In this document: piece after piece, positions 1,429 to 25,747 of the stretch
Layout of the letters: each line of letters starts with the position of its first letter
Numbering within the stretch: position 1 is the stretch's first letter
From: Sphingomonas crusticola
GTDB lineage: Bacteria; Pseudomonadota; Alphaproteobacteria; Sphingomonadales; Sphingomonadaceae
DNA length: 64,000 bases
Direction of reading: 5' to 3'
NCBI RefSeq assembly: GCF_003391115.1
Contig: NZ_QTJP01000001.1
Span: 1,798,001-1,862,000, forward strand
Translations under genes and position numbers: made by a program
The notes under the pieces: generated by a model
Databases searched by the model: none
The model's input: only the letters and a program-made list of their open reading frames with translations
Told to the model about the DNA's origin: nothing

Positions 1429-4233
1429 TCAGTTGTTCAACGCTTCGGTCACCAACGCTTCGAGCCGGCTGAGGTCGCCGGTCTTGAGGTGCACGCGCAG
1501 CACGCGCTGTCCGCGCTCCGCCAGCACGTCGAGATCGCCCCGCGCCTGCGCAATCTGGACATTGCCGAACGTCGCCTTGCGCCCCGGTATGGCGAGGTCG
1601 GGATCGGGGTGGCGCGTAATCTCGATGAACACGCCGCTCTTGGGTCCGCCCTTATAGGCCTGGCCGGTCGAATGGAGGAAACGCGGGCCGAAGCCCGCAA
1701 TGGTGGCGACGCCTCTGGCCTCGACCACCGCCTCGCGCATGCGGGCGATCACCGCCTCATGCTCGTCATTGCGTTCGATATAGGCCAGGAAACCGACATA
1801 ATCGCCCGGGTTGGCGCTGGCCAAATGGGTGCGCAGGATTTCGACCGGATCGCTCGGCGCGAATTCATGCTCGCCCGGTGCGAAGAAGGCGAGTTCCGCA
1901 TGCTCATGGAACGGCGTCTCCGGGGCGAGGCTGCCGGATTGCTCGTAGGCATCCACCAGCTCGCGCGTCTTGATCTTGGCGTCCTCGACGTCGGGTTGGT
2001 CGAACGGATCGATCCCGATCACCGCACCCGCGACGGCCGTGGCGATCTCCCACCGGAAGAATTCCTGGCCGATCAGATATTTGTCGGACAGACCGATCTT
2101 CACCACCGGCTGGCCGGCGGCGATCAACGCATCGACATGGGCGTCAAGCTCCGCATCCTCGTCGCCCTTGAGCGACAGCACCGCGAAGATCCGGTCCCTG
2201 CCATAGTCTTCCGCCGGGCTCAGCGGCTCGAGGTCGACCGGCACGATGCCCTTGCCATGCTTGCCGGTGGATTCGGCGATGAGCTGCTCCAACCAGGCGC
2301 CGACCGGCTCCAGCTCGGGCGTGGTCAGGATGGTGAGCTTGTCGCGCCCCGAAACCGACGCTTCGCCGAGAATGGCGCCGAGGTGGAAGCCGGGATTGAC
2401 GCCGGGAGGCGCATCGGGCCCGCAGGCCTGCACCATCGGCGCGGCCTTGGCGAAGAAATCGTCGACGTCGATGCCCATCAGCGCCGCCGGCACCATGCCG
2501 AACACCGACAATACCGAATAGCGACCGCCAATCGCCGGGTCGCCGAGGAAGATGGCGGAATAGCCATGCTCCCTGGCGAGTTTCTCGAGCTTCGAGCCCG
2601 GATCGGTCACCGCGATGAAGCGGCTGCCATCCTTGCCCGCCAGCTCCCAGAAATAAGCCCGCAGCAATTCCGGCTCCATCGTCGAGCCCGACTTGGAGGC
2701 GACGAGGAACAGCGCCTCGCTCGGGTCGATCTTGCCGGCGATGGTGCGGATCTGGCCGGGATCGGTCGAATCGAGCGCGTGCACGGTGGGCGAGCCCGGC
2801 GCGGCGCCGATCATCTCGGCTAGCACTTCCGGCCCGAGGCTGGAGCCGCCCATGCCGAGCAACACCACATCCTTATGCCCCTTGGCCTTCTCGCCCAACG
2901 CCTTGAGCGCCGCATGATCGACCTGCTTGCCCTGGCCGGCCGCGAGCCAGCCGAGCCATTTAGCCTCGTCTCCGCCGGTCCACAGCGACGCGTCATGCTG
3001 CCACAGCCGCCGCGTCCAGGCTTCGGCCCGCGCCGTCTCGAGCCGCGCCTCGACCGCCTTGCCCAGCGCGTCGGGCAAGGACGCATCCAGCGTCGCGAGC
3101 TTGTCGCCCGCCAGCGCCGCGCGCTTGGCCGCGATCGCGCCGAGCAGCGCATCGGCCGCATCGGCGAACAATTTCACGCCGTCATGGACCAGCGCCTCGG
3201 TCACACCGGGCAGGTCGAGCCCGAGCCGGTCCGCCTCGGCCAGCACATGCTTGGCCTCGTCGACATTGGCATCCAGCGTCCGCGCCAGCGTGCCGTGATC
3301 GCGAAACGCGTCCATCGTCTTGGGCGGCAGCGTGTTGACCGTCTCCGGCCCGATCAGGCTGTCGACATAGAGCGTGTCGGGATAGGCCGGATCCTTGACC
3401 CCGGTCGACGCCCATAGCAGCCGCTGCGGCTGCGCGCCCTTCGCGGCGAGCGCCTTCCAGCGGTCCGACGCGACGAACGCCAGATACCATTGATAGGCCA
3501 TCTTGGCGTTAGCGATTGCGACCTTGCCGCGGACCGCCTTCAGCGCGTCGGACTCCGGATCATTGGCGGCCAGCCGCGTATCGATCTTCTTGTCGATCTG
3601 CGCGTCGATGCGGCTGACGAAGAAGCTGGCGACGCTCGCGATCTTGTCGATCGGCTCACCCTTCTTCACGCGCGCTTCGAGACCCGCGACATAGGCTTCG
3701 GCCACCGCGATATAGCTTTCCAGGCTGAACAGCAGCGTGACGTTGATGTTGAGCCCGTCCTCGATCAGCTGACGGATGGCGGGCGCGCCGGCCTTGGTGC
3801 CCGGCACCTTGATCATGAGATTGGGTCGGTCGACCTGCGGCCACAGGCGGCGCGCTTCCTCGATCGTCGTCTCGGTGCCGTTGGCGAGATAAGGCGAAAC
3901 TTCCAGGCTGACATAGCCGTCGAGCCCGCCGGTGCGGTCGTAGACCGGGCGCAACGTATCCGCCGCCGCCTTGATGTCGCTGATCGCGAGCGCTTCGTAC
4001 GTGTCTGTGATCGAGGCGCCGGCATGCGCCTGCACGAACTGGCTGAACTCCTCGTCATAGGCCTCGCCATGGCCCATCGCCTTCTCGAAGATCGAGGGGT
4101 TGGAGGTGACGCCGGTGACGCCATCCTCCTCCACCAGTTTCTTGAGGCCGCCCTCTTTCAGGAAGGTGCGGTCGACGAAATCGAGCCACGGCGCCTGGCC
4201 GCTGGCGCGCAGCTGATCGAGCAGACTGGTCAT
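1429..4233 (-). CDS. tal-pgi: Bifunctional transaldolase / glucose-6-phosphate isomerase
   Basis: A 934-residue fusion. Residues 1 to about 370 are a transaldolase of the mycobacterial/cyanobacterial type, with VTSNPSIFEKA at 42-52 and the Schiff-base lysine K142 in LMIKVPGTKAG. From about residue 390 the protein is a glucose-6-phosphate isomerase, with HALDSTDPGQI and VASKSGSTMEPELL as sugar-phosphate binding loops. One polypeptide thus links sedoheptulose/erythrose phosphate exchange to fructose 6-phosphate/glucose 6-phosphate interconversion. It starts one base after the tkt stop, so the two are almost certainly co-transcribed and coupled. Fusions of this kind are known in acetic acid bacteria and sphingomonads. 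Confidence 0.95.
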   Translation of the reverse strand: MTSLLDQLRASGQAPWLDFVDRTFLKEGGLKKLVEEDGVTGVTSNPSIFEKAMGHGEAYDEEFSQFVQAHAGASITDTYEALAISDIKAAADTLRPVYDRTGGLDGYVSLEVSPYLANGTETTIEEARRLWPQVDRPNLMIKVPGTKAGAPAIRQLIEDGLNINVTLLFSLESYIAVAEAYVAGLEARVKKGEPIDKIASVASFFVSRIDAQIDKKIDTRLAANDPESDALKAVRGKVAIANAKMAYQWYLAFVASDRWKALAAKGAQPQRLLWASTGVKDPAYPDTLYVDSLIGPETVNTLPPKTMDAFRDHGTLARTLDANVDEAKHVLAEADRLGLDLPGVTEALVHDGVKLFADAADALLGAIAAKRAALAGDKLATLDASLPDALGKAVEARLETARAEAWTRRLWQHDASLWTGGDEAKWLGWLAAGQGKQVDHAALKALGEKAKGHKDVVLLGMGGSSLGPEVLAEMIGAAPGSPTVHALDSTDPGQIRTIAGKIDPSEALFLVASKSGSTMEPELLRAYFWELAGKDGSRFIAVTDPGSKLEKLAREHGYSAIFLGDPAIGGRYSVLSVFGMVPAALMGIDVDDFFAKAAPMVQACGPDAPPGVNPGFHLGAILGEASVSGRDKLTILTTPELEPVGAWLEQLIAESTGKHGKGIVPVDLEPLSPAEDYGRDRIFAVLSLKGDEDAELDAHVDALIAAGQPVVKIGLSDKYLIGQEFFRWEIATAVAGAVIGIDPFDQPDVEDAKIKTRELVDAYEQSGSLAPETPFHEHAELAFFAPGEHEFAPSDPVEILRTHLASANPGDYVGFLAYIERNDEHEAVIARMREAVVEARGVATIAGFGPRFLHSTGQAYKGGPKSGVFIEITRHPDPDLAIPGRKATFGNVQIAQARGDLDVLAERGQRVLRVHLKTGDLSRLEALVTEALNN

Positions 4234-4234
4234 C

Positions 4235-6310
4235 TTAATTGCCCTTCCCGAGCAGTTCGTTGGCGACCTTCACGATATGGTCGGCGCTGAAGCCGAACTT
4301 GTCCTGAAGCTTGGCGATCGGTGCCGACGCGCCGAAGGTCGACATGGTGATGGTGCGGCCGGTGCGGCCGACATAGCGATCCCAACCGACCTCGCTGCCC
4401 ATCTCGACGGCGATCCGCGCGTCGATGCCGGGCGGCAGGACCGCATCCTTATAGGCCTGGTCCTGCTTCTCGAAGAGGTACCAGCTCGGCATGGACACGA
4501 CCTGGGAGCGCACGCCCGCTTCGATCAGCTTCTCGTGCGCAGCAACGACCAGGCTCACTTCGGACCCGGTGCCGATCAGCACGACTTCCGGGTCGTCCGA
4601 ACCGGCAAGCACATAAGCGCCCTTCATCAGCCCCTCGGCGCCGGCATATTTGGTGCGATCCAGCGTCGGCATCGCCTGACGCGAAAAGATCAATGCGGTC
4701 GGCTGGTCGCCCGAAAGCAAGGCGGCCTTCCAGGCCCATGCCGTCTCGTTCGCATCGCCGGGCCGGATCACGTTCAGGCCCGGAATCGCGCGCAGGGACA
4801 CCAGCTGCTCGATCGGCTGATGGGTCGGGCCATCCTCCCCGACACCGATCGAATCGTGCGTGAACACGAACGCAACGCCAATCTCCATGATCGCGGCAAG
4901 CCGGATCGGCGGCCGCATATAATCGGAGAAGACCATGAAGGTCGCCGAATAGGATCGCAGGTGCGACAGCGCCATGCCGTTGACCGCCGCGCCCATGCCA
5001 TGCTCGCGCACGCCGAAATGGAGGTTGCGCGCGTCATAGCTGCCCGCCTGGAACGAGCCGCCATTATCGATCAGCGTCTTGGTCGAAGGCGCCAGATCGG
5101 CCGATCCGCCGACCAGCCACGGCAGCTTGGGCGCGATCGCGTTCAGGACCTTGCCGCCCGCATCGCGCGTCGCCATGCCCTTTTCGTCTGCCGGGAAGGT
5201 CGGGATGTCCGCGTCCCAGCCCTCCGGCAATTTGTCGGCGAGCAGCGCGCCCAGTTCCTTGCCCAGTTCCGGCTCGGCCGCCTTGTAGCGCTCAAGCATC
5301 TCGAACCATGTCTCGCGCAACGGCTTGCCGCGCCCGGATATGGCGGCGTGGAAGCGCTCCGCAACGCCGTCCGGCACCAGGAATTGGGCATCTTCCGGCC
5401 AGCCATAGGCCTTCTTGGTGCCGCGGATATCGTCGGCGGTCATCGCCTCGCCATGCGCCTTGGCGGTGCCCTGGATCGAGCTGCCATAACCGATGATGCT
5501 GTGCACGACGATGAAGGTCGGCTTGTCGTCGGTCGCCTTGAACGTCTCGATCGCCGCCGCGACGGCAGCGGTATCGTTGGCGTCGTTCACGTGAATAACG
5601 TTCCAGCCATAGGCCTCGAACCTTTTGCCGACATCCTCGTCGAAGGCGAGATCGGTGCCGCCCTCGATCGACACATGGTTCGAATCGTAGATCCAGCACA
5701 GGTTGGACAGTTTCAGATGACCGGCGAGGCTCGCGCCTTCGCTCGCCACGCCCTCCATCATGTCGCCGTCGCCGCACAACGTATAAATGTCGTGATCGAA
5801 CAGCGTGTAGCCGTCGCGATTATAGCGCGCCGCCAGCCAGCGCTCGGCGATCGCCATGCCGACCGAATTGCCGCAGCCCGCGCCCAGCGGCCCGGTCGTC
5901 GTCTCGACCCCGGTCGTGTGGCGATATTCGGGATGGCCTGGAGTCTTGGACGAAAGCTGGCGGAAATTCTTGATGTCGTCGAGGCTGACCGCTTCGGCGC
6001 CGCTCAACTTGCCGTCCTTGTCGATCTCCTTGATCCCGGCGAGATGGATCAGCGAATAGAGCAGCATCGAGGCATGGCCGACCGACAGCACGAAACGGTC
6101 GCGATTGGGCCAATCCGGCCGGTCGGGATCGGTACGCAGATATCGCGACCACAAGGTATAGCCCACCGGCGCCAGCCCCATCGGCGTGCCGATATGGCCG
6201 GACTTCGCCTTGGCGACCGCGTCCATCGAAAGCGTGCGGATCGTGTCGATCGCTAGCCGGTCGGGCGAGCCGTCCTCGTGAAGGTCGGTGGGCGCGGGCT
6301 GGGTCGACAT
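4235..6310 (-). CDS. tkt: Transketolase
   Basis: Thiamine-diphosphate enzyme that transfers two-carbon units between ketose and aldose phosphates. The 691-residue length is normal. Visible signatures are the early HIGTPMGLAP segment, the thiamine-diphosphate motif beginning CGDGDMMEGVASEGAS, and the pyrimidine-domain motif HDSIGVGEDGPTHQPIEQL. It is the first gene of the minus-strand unit tkt, tal-pgi, gnd, zwf, so a promoter is expected in the 107 bases between it and rpiA. A GAAGGGAA stretch a few bases upstream of the ATG serves as ribosome binding site. Product assignment is secure. Confidence 0.97.
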   Translation of the reverse strand: MSTQPAPTDLHEDGSPDRLAIDTIRTLSMDAVAKAKSGHIGTPMGLAPVGYTLWSRYLRTDPDRPDWPNRDRFVLSVGHASMLLYSLIHLAGIKEIDKDGKLSGAEAVSLDDIKNFRQLSSKTPGHPEYRHTTGVETTTGPLGAGCGNSVGMAIAERWLAARYNRDGYTLFDHDIYTLCGDGDMMEGVASEGASLAGHLKLSNLCWIYDSNHVSIEGGTDLAFDEDVGKRFEAYGWNVIHVNDANDTAAVAAAIETFKATDDKPTFIVVHSIIGYGSSIQGTAKAHGEAMTADDIRGTKKAYGWPEDAQFLVPDGVAERFHAAISGRGKPLRETWFEMLERYKAAEPELGKELGALLADKLPEGWDADIPTFPADEKGMATRDAGGKVLNAIAPKLPWLVGGSADLAPSTKTLIDNGGSFQAGSYDARNLHFGVREHGMGAAVNGMALSHLRSYSATFMVFSDYMRPPIRLAAIMEIGVAFVFTHDSIGVGEDGPTHQPIEQLVSLRAIPGLNVIRPGDANETAWAWKAALLSGDQPTALIFSRQAMPTLDRTKYAGAEGLMKGAYVLAGSDDPEVVLIGTGSEVSLVVAAHEKLIEAGVRSQVVSMPSWYLFEKQDQAYKDAVLPPGIDARIAVEMGSEVGWDRYVGRTGRTITMSTFGASAPIAKLQDKFGFSADHIVKVANELLGKGN

Positions 6311-7211: not shown

Positions 7212-7973
7212 CTATCGCCGCACCCGCCCGAAACCGAGCGCCGCCAGCCACCCGAGCAACAACGACAGCGCGATCGCGGCCAGGCCGTATAGCAGGGGAT
7301 AGGTCTCCGCCGCCGTGGCCACGAAGCGCTCGAACCCCGATTTGCCGATCGCGATTTCGCGCGTTGCCGCCGCCACGATCCGGCCGTCGCGAATAAGATA
7401 GGTCTCGGCGGTATAATTGCCGATCGGCACGCGCGCCGGGATCGGCACCAGCGCGCGATACAGCACGCCCTCGCGGACCGACACCGTGCCGACATGTTCG
7501 GTATAAAGCCCGCCGCGACGCTTGAGCTCCACCAGGCCGCGCTGAAACCGCGCCTGCTCGTTCGCGCTGGAGCCATTCGCCGGCGACAGCAGCAGGTTGC
7601 CGATGCCGATCTCGTAAATGGCGGCCGTGCGCGGCGACACGAGTTGATCGAGCGGGCGTGAGGTCGCGACCGCGTAGAAGCTCGGAACCGAACGAAAACG
7701 CTCGCTCGCATGATTGACCCAGATGCCGGCCACCATGGCCTTTTCCCGCACCAGCAGAGGCTCTGACGGGCCCTTGATCACCACCACGATGTCGGTATCC
7801 GGCGCCGGCGCCCGCCCGCCCGGATAGAGGATCGCCCCGAACAGCAGCAGGTCTGCTCCCGTGAAGCTGTAGGCAATGTCGATCCTGGTATCGGACACGT
7901 CGGGCACCAGCCGCGGCTCGGCCGCACCCATCAGCAGCGGCCACGCGGCGAGCCAGGCGAGCCGGCGTCTCAC
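7212..7973 (-). CDS. TIGR02186-family membrane protein
   Basis: A 253-residue protein of the alphaproteobacterial family TIGR02186, whose function is unknown. It has an N-terminal signal-like segment (LAWLAAWPLLMG), a beta-rich periplasmic body with conserved GADLLLFGAI and IVVVIKGP segments, and one C-terminal membrane span (about residues 228-248). The start is the GTG at 7973, whose GTGA overlaps the stop of the upstream TauE gene, indicating translational coupling. In alphaproteobacteria this family commonly stands beside TauE/SafE exporters, so a role as periplasmic partner of the exporter is a reasonable inference. No catalytic motif is visible. Confidence 0.85.
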   Translation of the reverse strand: MRRRLAWLAAWPLLMGAAEPRLVPDVSDTRIDIAYSFTGADLLLFGAILYPGGRAPAPDTDIVVVIKGPSEPLLVREKAMVAGIWVNHASERFRSVPSFYAVATSRPLDQLVSPRTAAIYEIGIGNLLLSPANGSSANEQARFQRGLVELKRRGGLYTEHVGTVSVREGVLYRALVPIPARVPIGNYTAETYLIRDGRIVAAATREIAIGKSGFERFVATAAETYPLLYGLAAIALSLLLGWLAALGFGRVRR

Positions 7974-8881
7974 AGGCCTTGTACCGTATAGATGGCGTCG
8001 GGCCGCCAGGTCAGGCCGATCGCCATCCGGATCGCCACCGCCAGCACGATCAGCGCGAGCATCAGCCGCGCCCGTTCGGGGCGCACCCGCTGAACCAGCC
8101 GCGACCCAATCTGCGCGCCGATCACCGAACCGATCAGCAGCAGCCCCGCCAGCACCAGATCCACCGCATGCGTGGTGAGCGCATGGACCAGGGTCGTCGT
8201 CGCGGTTACGAACAGCCCCTGGAACAGGGAGGTGCCGACCACCACCCGCGTCGATACGCCAAAGATGTAAATCATCGCCGGCACCAGGATGAAGCCGCCG
8301 CCGACCCCCATAAGCACCGTCAGCAAGCCGGTCACCAGCCCCAGCAGGAAGGGTGCGAGCGGCGAAATGTAGAGGCCCGCGCCATAGAAGCGCCACCGCA
8401 TCGGCAGCGCCGCCACCAGCCGGCGATGCCGTTTCTGCGCGGGGGGCGATGTCCCCCGTTTCTGCGCCGCCGCGGTGCGGATCGATTCCCGCGCCATCGT
8501 CAGGCCGATCCAACCCAGCATCGCGACATAGAGCAGGCCGATGATCGTATCGATCTGTCCGGTCGACTGAAGCAGGCGGAAGATGAAACCCCCGATCACC
8601 GAGCCGACCGCACCGCCCGCGACCAGCACCGCCCCCATGCGGAAATCAACGCCCTGCCGCTTGCTGTGCGCCAGCAGGCCGGAGACGCTGGTGCCGGTGA
8701 TCTGCGTCGCCGAAGATGCCACCGCGACCGCCGGCGGCACCCCGTAGAAGATCAGCAATGGCGTCGTCAGAAAGCCGCCACCGACCCCGAACATGCCCGA
8801 CAAGATGCCGACCGCGCCACCGAGCAGCACGATCACCAGCGCGTTGACCGACAGGCCTGCGATGGGGAGGTAAAGGTGCAT
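7970..8881 (-). CDS. Sulfite/organosulfonate exporter, TauE/SafE family
   Basis: A 303-residue polytopic inner-membrane protein. It shows the internal duplication typical of the family: LSGMFGVGGGFLTTPLLIF near the N-terminus and LTVLMGVGGGFILVPAMIY in the second half. TauE/SafE proteins are anion exporters or uptake channels for sulfite, sulfoacetate and related compounds; the substrate here is not deducible. I place the start at the ATG at 8881 (MHLYLPIAGLSV), because upstream codons run into the palindromic repeat and look non-coding. The stop overlaps the start of the TIGR02186 gene. Confidence 0.88.
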   Translation of the reverse strand: MHLYLPIAGLSVNALVIVLLGGAVGILSGMFGVGGGFLTTPLLIFYGVPPAVAVASSATQITGTSVSGLLAHSKRQGVDFRMGAVLVAGGAVGSVIGGFIFRLLQSTGQIDTIIGLLYVAMLGWIGLTMARESIRTAAAQKRGTSPPAQKRHRRLVAALPMRWRFYGAGLYISPLAPFLLGLVTGLLTVLMGVGGGFILVPAMIYIFGVSTRVVVGTSLFQGLFVTATTTLVHALTTHAVDLVLAGLLLIGSVIGAQIGSRLVQRVRPERARLMLALIVLAVAIRMAIGLTWRPDAIYTVQGL

Positions 8882-8927: not shown

Positions 8928-9054
8928 CGTCGCCCCAGCGAAGGCTGGGGCCCATGTCGCTCAGGGCTGGGCTGGGACGGTGAGGTAGCAACAACGCGCC
9001 GGCGGCATTCCGTGTTGAAAGAGCCATGGATGCCAGCCTCCGCTGGCATGACGG
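8928..9054. repeat. Paired-arm palindromic intergenic repeat (type A)
   Basis: The left arm begins CGTCGCCCCAGCG and the right arm ends with its inverted, diverged copy GCTGGCATGACGG. Each arm folds locally around AGGCTGG/CCAGCCT. It lies in the divergent gap between the TauE gene and the plus-strand hydrolase gene and must therefore lie close to both promoters. Confidence 0.7.
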
Positions 9055-9078
9055 CCTTGATAGCGAGTAGAAACCCTC

Positions 9079-9813
9079 ATGACCCAATATCTCGATCGCC
9101 CCGGCCTCCCCCGCCTCGCCTACGAGCTGCGCGACGGCGATGGCCCGACCATCGTCTTCCTGCCGGGCTATGGCTCGGACATGGCGGGCTCCAAGGCGGT
9201 CGCGCTCGACGCCTGGGCGGAGGCGCACGGCCAGGCGATGCTGCGGCTGGATTACCGCGGCTGCGGGCAGAGCGAGGGCGTGTTCGGGGAGGCGACGCTG
9301 GACGATTGGCGCGACGATGCGCTCGATGCGATCGACCACCTCACCCAGGGGCCGCTGATCCTGGTGGGATCGTCGATGGGCGGATGGCTGATGCTGCTGA
9401 TCGCGCTCGAGCGGTCGACGCGCGTCATGGGCTTGGTCGGCGTGGCCGCGGCGCCCGATTTCACGGAATGGGGCTATGACGAGGCGCAACGCGCGGCACT
9501 TGCCAGTGATGGACTGATCGTCAGCAATCATCCCGATTACGAGACGCCGGAGATCACCACCCGGGCATTTTGGGAAAGCGGTCAGGCCAAGCTCCTGCTG
9601 GATGGGGAGATCCCGATCGATTGTCCTGTCCGTCTTCTGCACGGCCTCGATGACAGCGACGTTCCGCCCTCGATCGCCTTCCGGCTGGGCCGCGCCCTCC
9701 GTTCAGCCGATATGCAGACGATGCTCGTCAAAGGCGGTGAGCACCGCCTGTCGCGGCCGGGCGATCTCGGCCTGCTGCTGACGACCGTCGCCGCCCTCAT
9801 CGAGAGTTTATGA
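9079..9813 (+). CDS. Alpha/beta hydrolase
   Basis: A 244-residue single-domain hydrolase, resembling the ABHD10/YtfL-like acyl-thioesterase or esterase group. The nucleophile elbow GSSMGG is at residues 97-102 (Ser99), the acid is most likely D192 in HGLDDSDVP, and the base is H222 in GGEHRLS, giving a complete Ser-Asp-His triad. The oxyanion loop FLPGYGSDM is near residue 27. No signal peptide is seen, so it is cytosolic. Its ATGA overlaps the following TPR gene. The substrate is unknown. Confidence 0.85.
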   Translation: MTQYLDRPGLPRLAYELRDGDGPTIVFLPGYGSDMAGSKAVALDAWAEAHGQAMLRLDYRGCGQSEGVFGEATLDDWRDDALDAIDHLTQGPLILVGSSMGGWLMLLIALERSTRVMGLVGVAAAPDFTEWGYDEAQRAALASDGLIVSNHPDYETPEITTRAFWESGQAKLLLDGEIPIDCPVRLLHGLDDSDVPPSIAFRLGRALRSADMQTMLVKGGEHRLSRPGDLGLLLTTVAALIESL

Positions 9814-10541
9814 TCCCTCTCCTGCTGCTTGCCGCCACCCTGACCGATATATCCGGCGACGCCGCGCGTAGTGCGGCCTGCCAGGCCTTGGCCGCGCGCG
9901 ACCCCGCCGCGGCGGTCGAGCAGGCGAGCGCATGGGCCGAGCGCGACAAGAGCGTTGCCTCACGCCAATGCCTCGGACTCGCCTTCGTTGCTGTCGAACG
10001 GTGGGCACCGGCGCAGGCCGCGTTCGAGCAGGCGGCGGCCGACGCGCAGGCCCAGCATATCGGCCGCCCCGCCGAATTGTGGAGCCAGGCGGCCAACGCG
10101 GCGCTCGCCGCCGATCAGCCCGCCAAGGCACGTCAGAATATCGATCAGGCGCTCGCCATTCCTGCGCTGCCGCCGACGCTCGCCGGCGAAGCATGGATCG
10201 ACCGCGCCCGCGCCGACGTCGCGCTCGATCAACTGCCACAGGCGCGGATCGATCTCGACAAGGGGTTGGCGCTGGTGCCGCAGGATCCGTTCGCCTGGCT
10301 GCTGTCGGCCACGCTCGCCCGCCGCCAACAGGACCTGCCGCGCGCGCAGAAGGATATCGCGATCGCGCTCAAATCGGCCGCAGACGATCCTTCCGTCCAA
10401 TATGAGGCAGGCAATATCGCCGCCGCAGCCGGACAGACCGACGCCGCCCGCGCGGCCTGGACCCGGGCCGCACAAATCGGCCCGGCCGACCCGGCGGGCA
10501 AGGCCGCCGCGGCTTCGCTGGCGCAGCCGCCATCGCAATAG
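9810..10541 (+). CDS. Tetratricopeptide-repeat protein
   Basis: A 243-residue helical repeat protein. After a short hydrophobic N-terminus (MIPLLLLAATL, possibly a signal peptide) it contains about five degenerate TPR units; the clearest runs from DQLPQARIDLDKGLALVPQD to PFAWLLSATLARRQQDLPRA. It starts inside the stop codon of the hydrolase gene (4-base overlap), so the two are translationally coupled. The likely role is protein-protein interaction in the periplasm or at the membrane. No enzymatic motif is visible. Confidence 0.75.
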   Translation: MIPLLLLAATLTDISGDAARSAACQALAARDPAAAVEQASAWAERDKSVASRQCLGLAFVAVERWAPAQAAFEQAAADAQAQHIGRPAELWSQAANAALAADQPAKARQNIDQALAIPALPPTLAGEAWIDRARADVALDQLPQARIDLDKGLALVPQDPFAWLLSATLARRQQDLPRAQKDIAIALKSAADDPSVQYEAGNIAAAAGQTDAARAAWTRAAQIGPADPAGKAAAASLAQPPSQ

Positions 10542-19426: not shown

Positions 19427-22459
<3,033 letters not shown>

Positions 22460-22967
22460 TGTTCCTCTCGCTTGCGGGGAGGAGTTTGAGAGGGGGAGTC
22501 CCAATTTGACCGTTCCTGAAAAAAAGGAAAGGCCGGCCGGCTCGCCGCCCTGGCGCTGCTGCGCGCACCGTCAGCGCTGCGCCTGCTAGTTGATCCTAAG
22601 CATCCTGATCAGTGCCCAACGCGGGCGTCGAGAACCGTCTGGTGCGGTCGTATTCGCGGGAGGAGGGGCGAAAGTCGAGCGAGAATGTTGCGCAGCAAAC
22701 TGGGTGGCTTGACCGCGCTGGAGAAGTGACGTTCTATGTAGCAACGGTGTTGCGGAGCCGGTGAGCGGGAATATGAAGTTTGTCGCCGCAGCTATGTCGG
22801 ACGAAGAAGTGACGTTCGACTCGGTTATCGACAGCCACAGAAGGATAAGCGCAACTTTTAGAGAAAAGATGGACTAGGATATAAGCGAGTGGGAGTTTTG
22901 TTCCCGCTTATTATCTGGATTGGTGTTCCTTCAGGTTCACAGTCATCCCGCTAACAAGGCAACGATT
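22460..22967. other. 508-base gap between uvrA and the AT-rich gene; no convincing gene
   Basis: The first 150 bases are GC-rich and include a small hairpin (TTCCTGAAAAAAAGGAA, 22513-22529). Base composition shifts toward AT from about 22740, marking the left edge of a foreign segment. The only open frame with protein-like composition is the 34-codon one at 22773-22877, listed separately. No transposase, integrase or tRNA remnant was recognised. Confidence 0.6.
22773..22877 (+). CDS. Possible small ORF, 34 codons
   Basis: The frame begins MKFVAAAMSDEEVTFDSVID and ends in a TAG at 22877. It is polar and helical-looking, with no recognised family. No clear ribosome binding site precedes its ATG. 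It lies 90 bases upstream of the AT-rich deoxyribosyltransferase-like gene, in the same orientation, and could be a leader or small partner, a truncated gene remnant, or chance. Confidence 0.2.
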   Translation: MKFVAAAMSDEEVTFDSVIDSHRRISATFREKMD

Positions 22968-23870
22968 ATGGCTGAAAAGGAGCAAATGTTAGCCGACGAG
23001 CAGCCCGCTGCGTCTGAGCTGCGGTCTGATGTGCGCAAAGTGTGCGGGATCGTCATGCCGATTGCCGGGATTGATGATGAATATTCCGAAGAACACTGGC
23101 GCCGGGTGCGAAAAATCTTGCAACGAGCAATCGAGCGAGCCGGCTTACGATCTCAGCTCGTATGGGAGAATGCCGAAATAGACGTAATACAATCGGCGAT
23201 ATTGCAAAATCTCTATGAGAACGATGTTGTTGTATGTGACGTTAGCGCACTTAATCCCAATGTAATGCTTGAGGCTGGGCTCAGACTTTCAACTAAGCGG
23301 CCTACAATTATAGTAACGGACCGTGTTCAGAAGCCACCTTTTGATATAAGCACGATTGGATATATAGAATATCAAAGAAACTTAGAGTATAACTCCATAG
23401 AAGACTTCATAGAGAAATTATCTAAAAAGATTAAAAGTGTAACTGTTGCGGCTGAGGCCGGAAATTACCAATCATTTGTTGAACAGTTTAGATTTGAGAC
23501 CGTGACGCCGGCAACTGTTACTCTCACATCTGACGAATACATTAAAGACAGAATTGATGAATTAACTGCTGCTGTCGCGCGGATAGAGCGTTCTCAGCGC
23601 GCGCCTTCACCACCGAGAGCTAGATCAAGAGCAAACGCAACTCCTTCGAGATTCAAGAAAATTGCGGAATTGACAGGAAATTTTGATCAAGAAAAAGCTG
23701 ATGAAGTAGAAAAACTTATTGATCTAATTCCATACGTTTATTGTATTATAACAAACATAGGCGAGAATGAGTTCGAAATCGACATTCACATGATGGAAGC
23801 ATCTGACGCTGATGCTCAATCAATTATGAGCCGTGTTGTACAAATAATTGCGGACGCAGAAAGCTCCTAA
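22968..23870 (+). CDS. Nucleoside 2-deoxyribosyltransferase-like / STIR-like domain protein, horizontally acquired
   Basis: A 300-residue protein I do not recognise as a named gene. Residues 26-155 form a Rossmann-like domain: strand CGIVMPIAGIDD, then DVIQSAILQNLYENDVVVCD (72-91), then SALNPNVMLEAGLRL (93-107) and RPTIIVTD. D91 and E102 occupy positions typical of nucleoside 2-deoxyribosyltransferases, which share their fold with nucleotide-signal sensors and TIR-like NAD enzymes. Residues 190-210 look like a short coiled coil. Next comes a basic Pro/Arg linker (211-230), then a separate C-terminal domain (231-300). The start at 22968 has AAGG at good spacing; ATG 22986 is an alternative. 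The gene is far richer in A+T than its neighbours (17 G/C in 23341-23400), a sign of recent transfer. Substrate and role are unknown. Confidence 0.65.
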   Translation: MAEKEQMLADEQPAASELRSDVRKVCGIVMPIAGIDDEYSEEHWRRVRKILQRAIERAGLRSQLVWENAEIDVIQSAILQNLYENDVVVCDVSALNPNVMLEAGLRLSTKRPTIIVTDRVQKPPFDISTIGYIEYQRNLEYNSIEDFIEKLSKKIKSVTVAAEAGNYQSFVEQFRFETVTPATVTLTSDEYIKDRIDELTAAVARIERSQRAPSPPRARSRANATPSRFKKIAELTGNFDQEKADEVEKLIDLIPYVYCIITNIGENEFEIDIHMMEASDADAQSIMSRVVQIIADAESS

Positions 23871-24152
23871 GTCAGGTGGTCGGAGGAAGAGATGCAGCGC
23901 ACGACGTCATCAGCCGTCCGGGCCCGGCATGTCACGCGCGGCTGATCCATCCTGATCTTCGGCTTGGCTTCGAGGTGGTCGCGGACGTCGACAGTTCCGG
24001 GGACACAATACGCAATTCTAACGCTCGGCAGCGGCGCCCGGCCAGGGCAGCATTGCCAATAACGAGAATGGCCGAGGCGAGTATATCGCAGCAGCAAGGC
24101 GGCGCTCAACATGGCTCTTCGCAGATTCGCCACGCGCGATGCGGCAACTCGC
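23871..24152. other. Gap downstream of the AT-rich gene; nothing recognised
   Basis: Normal GC content returns within a few bases of the stop codon at 23870, which marks the right edge of the foreign segment. Both strands have open frames of 88-102 codons, but their predicted proteins are arginine-rich, lack a ribosome binding site and match no family I know. They are treated as non-coding. Confidence 0.5.
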
Positions 24153-24198
24153 TTCTAAAAACGCGCCGCAGCGCCCGGACATAATATCCGGGCGCTGC
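24153..24198 (-). terminator. Rho-independent terminator of the Zn-alcohol dehydrogenase gene
   Basis: A perfect 12-base stem (GCAGCGCCCGGA 24168-24179 with TCCGGGCGCTGC 24187-24198) encloses a 7-base loop. On the minus strand it is followed, after GGCGCG, by TTTTT. It lies 9 bases beyond the stop codon of the dehydrogenase gene. Confidence 0.8.
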
Positions 24199-24206
24199 GC
24201 TCTACG

Positions 24207-25382
24207 TCACCCGTGCGGGCGCATCACGACCTTGATGACGCCGTCTTCCTTGTCGCGGAACTTCTTGTACATCTCCGGGGCGTCTTCCAGGCTGGCCGGG
24301 TGCGTGACGACGAAGCTCGGGTCGATGTCGCCCGCCTCGATCCGCGCCAGCAGCGGCTTGGTGTAACGCTGCACATGCGTCTGCCCGCTCTTGATCGTCA
24401 GGCCCTTGTTCATCATCGCGCCGATCGGGATCTTGTCGCCCATGCCGACATAGACGCCCGGGACGGAGACCGTGCCGCCCATGCGGCAGCTCATGATCGC
24501 CTGGCGCAGCACATGCACGCGATCGGTCGCCAGGAAGGTCGCCGCCTTCACCTTGTCGACGACCGCATCGACCGCGCCATGGCCGGCCGCCTCGCACCCG
24601 ACCGCGTCGATACAGCTGTCCGGGCCGCGCCCCTTGGTGCGGAACTGCAGCTCGTCATAGACATCGACCTGCGAGAAATCGATCGTCTCCGCGCCGCCGG
24701 CCTCGGCCATGGCGAGCCGTTCCGGGACTTTGTCGATCGCGATGATGCGGCCCGCGCCCAGCATCAGCGCGGAGCGGATGGCGAACTGGCCGACCGGCCC
24801 GCAACCCCACACCGCGACCGTGTCGCCGGGCTCGATCTGCGCATTCTCGGCCGCCATATAGCCGGTCGGGAAGATGTCGGACAGGAACAATGCCTGCTCG
24901 TCGGAGACGCTGTCCGGCACCTTGATCGGGCCGATATCGGCCATCGGCACGCGCAGATATTCCGCCTGACCGCCGCAATAGCCGCCCAGCATATGGCTGA
25001 AGCCGAACAGGCCGGCGGGCGAATGGCCCATCGCCTTGATCGCCATCTCGGCATTGGGGTTGGTCCGCTCGCAGGCCGAAAAGAGGCCCTTGCGGCAGAA
25101 CCAGCAATCGCCGCAGCTGATCGTGAACGGCACGACCACGCGATCGCCGATCTTGAGATTGGTCACCTCGGAACCGAGCGCGACGACCTCGCCCATATTC
25201 TCGTGGCCAAGGATGTCGCCCGATTCCATCGTCGGCTGATATCCGTCCAGCAGATGCAGATCGGATCCGCAGATCGCGCAGGCGGTGACCTTGATGATGG
25301 CATCGCGCGGATGCTGGATCTCGGGCTCCGCGACATTGTCGACGCGCACGTCGCCTTTTCCATGCCAGACGAGTGCACGCAT
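24207..25382 (-). CDS. Zinc-dependent alcohol dehydrogenase (formaldehyde-dehydrogenase-like MDR)
   Basis: A 391-residue medium-chain dehydrogenase. Catalytic zinc ligands are C38 (CAICGSD) and H60-E61 (GHEN). The structural zinc cysteines C90, C93, C96 and C104 form the lobe [15 protein letters not shown]. The NAD(P) site is [12 protein letters not shown]. The extended C-terminal half places it near glutathione-independent formaldehyde dehydrogenase-like and threonine-dehydrogenase-like enzymes. I start at the ATG at 25382; the codons upstream to 25469 look non-coding. It is a single-gene unit with its own terminator. The substrate is not known. Confidence 0.88.
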
Positions 25383-25747
25383 CGGGATTCTCCAATTTCG
25401 AATTGAGGGCACCGGCCGTCGGTGCATGAGTGCGGACAACGTGCGCTCGGCGCGATCGGGCCCGCACAATCGTCCCGGCGCGGATCATCTTAACCTATGT
25501 GATCAAAAGACTTTCCTGCCGCGTCACGACCACGTCACCCCAGCGCAGGCTGGGGTCCATGGCTCTCTCCACGCACGCCACACGTGCGCGAAGAGAGGGA
25601 TGCCAGCCCTTGGCATGACGCGGAGAGTGGCCCGGCAGGCCACACCGCGCCCGGATCGCGCCGGACCGAGCCGTCAGGCCGCCTTTGCCAGCGCCACGAT
25701 CCGCGCCCGTGCGTTAACCCTGCCGGCGACAATATGGAGGCGCGACG
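25383..25747. other. 365-base divergent gap holding a type A repeat and two promoters' worth of space
   Basis: The gap lies between the minus-strand dehydrogenase and the plus-strand quinone oxidoreductase pseudogene. Apart from the palindromic repeat at 25533-25620 no gene or strong promoter motif is apparent. An AT-richer patch around 25488-25515 (ATCTTAACCTATGTGATC) is the likeliest promoter site. Confidence 0.5.
25533..25620. repeat. Paired-arm palindromic intergenic repeat (type A)
   Basis: The left arm is CGTCACCCCAGCGCAGGCTG and the right arm ends TGGCATGACG. The pair folds on itself through GGTCCATGGCTCTCTCC and AGAGAGGGATGCC. It is close in sequence to the elements at 8928 and 53379. 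Confidence 0.75.

Follow-up and report, generated by a model that had tools for sequence, protein, structure and literature searches.

The question raised by this locus of Sphingomonas crusticola is what a lone AT-rich gene does behind uvrA on a GC-rich chromosome. The window, the whole stretch of 64,000 nucleotides that was analysed, has a GC content of about 66%. The gene and its surroundings are as follows.

19427-22459, plus strand: uvrA, the 3' flank of which is an insertion hotspot
22460-24206, no strand: occupied hotspot interval in Sphingomonas crusticola, from uvrA to the alcohol dehydrogenase gene
22968-23870, plus strand: AT-rich gene (GC 0.434, GC3 0.389) for a TIR/NDT-like protein of 300 residues with a variable C-terminal domain
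24207-25469, minus strand: zinc-type alcohol dehydrogenase (ADH) gene, the right neighbour, outside the system

The gene and its relatives

The open reading frame begins with an ATG at 22968; an alternative TTG at 22920 would add 16 residues. It is a real gene and not a chance frame, because 160 homologous loci were recovered. The genome of Sphingomonas crusticola has a single copy of it. In 900-base windows the GC content is 0.431 at the gene and 0.60-0.72 elsewhere in the window, and its GC3 of 0.389 compares with 0.88 for uvrA, 0.865 for the ADH gene and 0.874 for pyrD. Only one of the 21 tiles of 3 kb shows a GC dip larger than 0.12, the tile that contains the gene. The sequence-only reading was thus right in calling it the sole strongly AT-rich gene of the window, and its count of 17 G/C among the 60 bases of 23341-23400 proved exact when repeated by hand.

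Neither flank of the gene contains a tRNA, a long direct repeat or an integrase remnant, and no phage remnant was found around the gene behind uvrA. A terminator-like hairpin of the ADH gene occupies 24167-24199. An origin from a mobile element with visible ends was considered and rejected, the flanks offering just one 13-base direct repeat, AGAAGTGACGTTC, at 22722-22734 and 22805-22817, within the degenerate interval that precedes the gene.

Profile scans recovered the family from 160 loci, half of them (80) in bacterial genomes and half (80) in viral contigs; its members were fetched by short conserved peptide patterns. The proteins are about 300 residues long, and the closest relatives are 54-61% identical across the matched part. 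In 131 of the 160 loci the gene has a GC content 5 points or more under that of its flanks, so that low GC characterises the family, as is typical of mobile cargo genes. Relatives found by tblastn reside in temperate phages of Escherichia, Klebsiella, Staphylococcus, Dorea and Latilactobacillus, and also on plasmids. Presence is sporadic: of 298 genomes from the same order, just 7 have any family match; the E. coli homologue (WP_001551510.1) was found in 23 of 5426 genomes. The family is uncharacterised and phage-spread. Literature searches on this family and on hydroxymethyl-CMP hydrolases of prophages returned nothing on point, nor any activity or phage assay of a member.

Single-sequence scans of the 300-residue protein against Pfam and NCBIfam gave nothing above cut-off, a single-sequence search of the PDB gave nothing specific, and PADLOC made no specific assignment for the family. 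Direct sequence similarity connects the protein to two PHROGs families of unknown function, phrog_3634 (E 1.1e-17, residues 23-221) and phrog_10872 (E 8.7e-13, residues 16-166); unlike these, the Sphingomonas crusticola copy is chromosomal and has no recognisable prophage around it. The PADLOC profile of a CBASS TIR effector, PDLC00733, matches the protein with E 1.4e-8 over only 74 of its 388 positions, and seven relatives with E 9.5e-5 to 4.8e-12. The match is partial, and there is no CD-NTase gene here, the neighbours being uvrA and the ADH gene.

The 124 scanned members match ten Pfam families at E <= 0.01. PF05014, the family of NDT, DNPH1 and MilB, is matched by 49 of the 124; the 300-residue protein has no match to it, and the relatives stay under the gathering cut-off of 28.8 bits, the best at 19.9. 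PF10137 matches three of the 124 weakly and the 300-residue protein not at all; relatives score 15-16 bits against a gathering cut-off of 24.7. DUF4062 is not among the ten families, and membership in it was rejected. Judged by the tests made, the protein belongs to none of NDT, DUF4062, PF10137 and CBASS.

Fold, active site and variable C-terminal third

The structure of the protein was modelled with AlphaFold2 on the 124-member alignment. The mean pLDDT is 83.7, and most of the N-terminal domain reaches about 90-98. The features of the protein, all on the plus strand, are listed below.

23037-23453: conserved N-terminal Rossmann-type TIR/NDT-like domain, residues 24-162 (22-162 in the model), presumed catalytic (model, fold matches and conservation)
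23199-23201: codon of I78, which stands where NDT/DNPH1 have the catalytic Asp (D80), from the alignment to chain 8rpt_B
23271-23273: codon of E102, presumed catalytic Glu in the motif N-P-N-V-x-x-E-x-G, invariant and aligned with E104 of DNPH1
23529-23600: helical stalk or linker, residues 188-211 (model secondary structure)
23652-23864: hypervariable C-terminal ferredoxin-like domain with S6-like topology, residues 229-299, presumed sensor (model)

The modelled N-terminal domain fits three structures equally well: MilB (Z 13.6, 140 aligned residues, 3.7 A), DNPH1 (Z 13.5, 125 aligned, 2.6 A) and the TIR domain of SfSTING (Z 13.4, 118 aligned, 2.2 A). Further matches are TIR-STING (Z 12.2) and the SARM1 TIR domain (Z 11.9), and Foldseek matches an NDT with E 3.6e-6. 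Such fold matches are also common to non-enzymatic TIRs and response regulators. The placement of the domain in the NDT/TIR (STIR) group, proposed from the sequence alone, agrees with these folds and with the PF05014 matches, and the model likewise bears out the proposed helical linker followed by a separate C-terminal domain.

Eleven residues (P31, D91, N96, N98, V99, E102, G104, R106, F125, D126 and Y135) are invariant across the 148 unique sequences; the family motif reads CGxxMPI...CDvSxxNPNVxxELGxR. Invariance of the motif columns is partly built in, because members were fetched by conserved peptide patterns; E102, however, lies outside the viral search patterns, and R106, F125, D126 and Y135 lie outside every pattern. 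E102 is kept in 148 of 148 members, including all 70 of the viral set that was not selected for it. D91 and E102, the loss of which across the family had been named as an argument against an effector, are thus both retained.

In DNPH1, E104 acts as the nucleophile and D80 donates a proton to the leaving base (PMC10603095), while in TIR-like NADases the catalytic residue is a conserved Glu (PMC13174449). An ungapped profile alignment over the catalytic helix and strand of DNPH1, weak by its E values of 0.55-1.6, places E104 on E102. The position of D80 was read from the D80A mutant chain 8rpt_B, where it is Ala; in the corresponding column of the family, 140 of the 142 scored members have Ile and the other 2 have Val. 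D91 was considered as the catalytic Asp of an NDT and rejected, since the same alignment puts that Asp at I78. On these alignments, the family keeps the Glu common to NDT and TIR enzymes and lacks the acid that defines NDT. Replacement of the Asp by Ile or Val with the Glu kept favours TIR-like cleavage of NAD+ (or of a nucleotide) over nucleoside transfer. The likeness to NDT suggested earlier therefore stands for the fold, while the chemistry is more likely TIR-like. From sequence comparison, the protein would most likely cleave NAD+, the rival activity being nucleotide hydrolysis.

This rival corresponds to a phage enzyme of the nucleotide pool that hydrolyses a (modified) nucleoside monophosphate as MilB (hmCMP) or DNPH1 (hmdUMP) does, and either helps the metabolism of the resident phage or destroys the modified precursors of competing phages. 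MilB and DNPH1 are indeed the best fold matches, the top viral structure match carries the name CMP/hydroxymethyl CMP hydrolase, and several homologues lie within phage replication modules. Such an enzyme is nevertheless unlikely, as the column of the catalytic acid is Ile or Val in all 142 scored members, the hypervariable C-terminal third is needless for metabolism, and the chromosomal copy occupies a slot common to defence genes. The present protein shares with NDT, DNPH1 and MilB the fold and the nucleophile Glu; it differs from them in the lost acid and in the additional stalk and variable C-terminal domain.

With the CAP12/PCTIR TIR effectors and TIR-STING (PF10137) the protein has in common the TIR fold and a Glu motif of the NV-x-x-E-L-G type; in PF10137 the catalytic Glu lies in a consensus of this type. 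In contrast to them, it falls below the Pfam cut-off and has neither a STING domain nor a cyclase gene nearby.

The C-terminal domain has a beta-alpha-beta-beta-alpha topology, which is unchanged when the domain is modelled alone (pLDDT 77). Its structural matches are a circularly permuted S6 (Z 11.3), other ferredoxin-like folds and C-terminal domains of the MscS type; no function is read from them, because these matches are only generically ferredoxin-like and speak of shape. The sequence of this part is hypervariable. The C-terminal thirds of the 148 proteins fall into 122 clusters, 109 of them singletons (E 1e-3), and most members have no alignable similarity there, whereas the N-terminal domain aligns easily. 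The C-terminus of the Sphingomonas crusticola protein has no sequence relatives among the 148 family proteins; the similarity of the closest genome relatives (61% identical) ends at residue 208-227 and that of the closest viral relative (55%) at residue 264. A constant N-terminal domain with a hypervariable tail is the pattern expected of a sensor under an arms race, and from this variability the C-terminal domain is presumed to be the sensor.

The extreme C-terminus shows another peculiarity. Among 140 full-length members of the family, 16 have the ending -PF, which in 15 of them is hydrophobic-P-F, compared with 8 of 1194 neighbouring proteins (p 3e-11). These tails occur on unrelated C-terminal domains, for example in loci L087, L134, L151, L198 and L200. 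The -(I/L/V)PF ending resembles the C-terminal tail of SSB.

Phage and chromosomal settings

Relatives sit in accessory slots of temperate phages. The Pantoea copy (L014) lies between a CI-type repressor and an integrase in a P2-like element, the Klebsiella copy in an early region flanked by replication genes and ninB, and the E. coli copy close to the integrase in a prophage at yfhL. As judged by eye, the near relative L041 adjoins a CI-like repressor and L121 lies in a phage structural cluster; many other relatives are beside repressor or integrase genes. Phage hallmarks were found in at least 28 of the 80 genome loci and at least 46 of the 80 viral loci, counts that are lower bounds because the query set was limited. 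Phage genes of unknown function that occupy such slots are not all defensive.

The closest Sphingomonas relative (L042, 5897-10097) lies, by eye, between recJ and a convergent tyrosine integrase, and may be a minimal element of integrase plus cargo. A homologue from a different genus of this bacterial family (L030), 33-36% identical to the Sphingomonas crusticola protein, directly follows, by eye, the terminase gene gpP and the portal gene gpQ of a P2-like prophage. The cos-proximal site of P2 carries old and tin, and antiviral systems have been validated there (PMC9122126). The L030 copy occupies this P2-like antiviral hotspot; the copy in the window, by contrast, is in a chromosomal slot behind uvrA.

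One alternative is a signalling enzyme that turns NAD+ or nucleotides into a second messenger in the manner of ThsB, with its partner effector encoded elsewhere. It would agree with the TIR-like fold, with some neighbours of family members that are weakly ThsB-like or ATPase/TOPRIM-like, and with the co-occurrence of the E. coli homologue and a separate TIR-domain gene in one prophage. No conserved partner gene was seen beside the members examined, however, and the gene is solitary between uvrA and the ADH gene, which makes signalling improbable. In the E. coli prophage (L201) the TIR-domain gene and the homologue, at 7510-8271 and 9001-9918, are four genes apart.

The frequent position beside CI-like repressors and integrases could also be that of a prophage regulator or exclusion protein devoid of enzymatic activity, with a retained nucleotide-binding Rossmann fold. 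Against this stands the full conservation of E102, N96, N98, R106, D126 and Y135 across distant phyla, which indicates an active site; moreover, chromosomal stand-alone copies have no phage to control. A non-enzymatic role is accordingly very unlikely.

The chromosomal site was compared among related bacteria. Within the genus, uvrA is conserved and its right-hand neighbours vary; the adjacency of uvrA and the ADH gene is absent from the genus relatives examined, and the gene is missing behind uvrA in the five of them whose flank was read. Because these relatives have other right-hand neighbours of uvrA, an exact empty-site junction is not obtainable. Among 25 genomes of the same bacterial family, with kinship ignored and the distal flank and the 64-kb window as controls, 13 show a GC dip larger than 0.12 less than 3 kb from uvrA; at 3-6 kb, 0 of 24 do (Fisher p 3e-5).

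Most of the relatives read carry an AT-rich insert in the slot, and its contents differ from genome to genome. In G241 a GmrSD_N protein (NsnA E 6e-62, PD-T4-2_A E 3e-45) is paired with a HEPN protein; G302 has a Beta_protein (E 2.5e-36) together with an IrrE peptidase, similar to PD-Lambda-2, G299 a NACHT NTPase and G298 a gene of 43% GC with no function assigned; G300 has no AT-rich insert behind uvrA. In other genera the occupants are an OLD/AriA-like ATPase (G142, E 2e-53), PDC-S06 (G137, E 4e-78), PDC-M53B (G308), PDC-M38A with a weak second match (G296), and a protein that looks by eye like DUF4062 and ends in DEDIPF (G315). The uvrA 3' flank is thus a recurrent slot, occupied in related bacteria by known or candidate defence genes; no description of a uvrA defence hotspot was found in the literature. 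The earlier description of the gene as alone between housekeeping genes needs amendment in this respect: the gene is solitary between uvrA and the ADH gene, but its place is a recurrent slot for defence genes. Nor do homologues lie in consistent metabolic operons, an arrangement set beforehand as speaking against an effector; they are found in prophages and in a defence hotspot instead.

The slot corresponds to 22460-24206 of the window and to the same site in loci L025, L026, L027, L029, L236, L237, L242, L243, L248 and L251. In L025 (G241; reversed, about 3400-4560) a second copy of the final ~120 bases of uvrA lies about 1 kb further downstream; the duplication flanks a small toxin-antitoxin-like pair and is a possible trace of slot filling. 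The DUF4062-looking frame of G315 (L236, 56-1034) appears to be split over two frames, maybe by a frameshift in the assembly.

That the gene is merely newly landed foreign DNA without function in this host, as its GC3 of 0.39, its strongly foreign codon usage and its absence from the site in the five genus relatives might suggest, is most improbable given an intact reading frame, the retention of every family-invariant residue and a slot in which relatives hold intact defence genes.

Proposed mode of action

The protein is probably a stand-alone anti-phage sensor-effector, in which sensing, oligomerisation, NAD+ cleavage and abortive infection would follow one another. The C-terminal domain would recognise a phage product or a change induced by infection, and recognition would make the protein assemble into oligomers by way of its stalk, as TIR NADases do. 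E102 of the N-terminal domain would then break the N-glycosidic bond of an abundant nucleotide, with NAD+ as the likeliest substrate, and the infected cell would stop or die ahead of phage release. Temperate phages would spread the family as superinfection-exclusion cargo, and copies would also be dropped into chromosomal defence slots.

The layout is that of the DUF4062 or Swarozyc systems: one gene, a TIR-like domain with a conserved Glu, a helical stalk and a C-terminal auxiliary domain. The DUF4062 TIR-like NADase with its C-terminal auxiliary sensor is anti-phage as a single gene; the C-terminal domain senses the phage, and the systems occur in defence islands (PMC13174449). The DUF4062-looking protein of G315 shares the uvrA slot in a related genus. 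The present family differs from DUF4062 in its motif, in being largely phage-borne and in its ferredoxin-like C-terminal domain. By analogy, the best reading is that the protein works like Swarozyc or TIR effectors while belonging to no named family.

A wider proposal is put forward more tentatively. The family may be a set of phage-spread one-gene immune receptors, in which a constant TIR/NDT-like N-glycosidase domain is combined with an open-ended set of sensors, some with SSB-like tails that could tether the protein to replication or repair factors, and the uvrA flank may be an as yet undescribed defence slot. If so, 'hypothetical' proteins of E. coli, Klebsiella, Paenibacillus, Bacteroidota and sphingomonads, among others, would be sensor variants around one enzyme. 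Their triggers could be found by escape mutants, and would tell how quickly the immune receptors of bacteria are retooled. The uvrA slot would be a simple place to seek new defence genes in Sphingomonadaceae.
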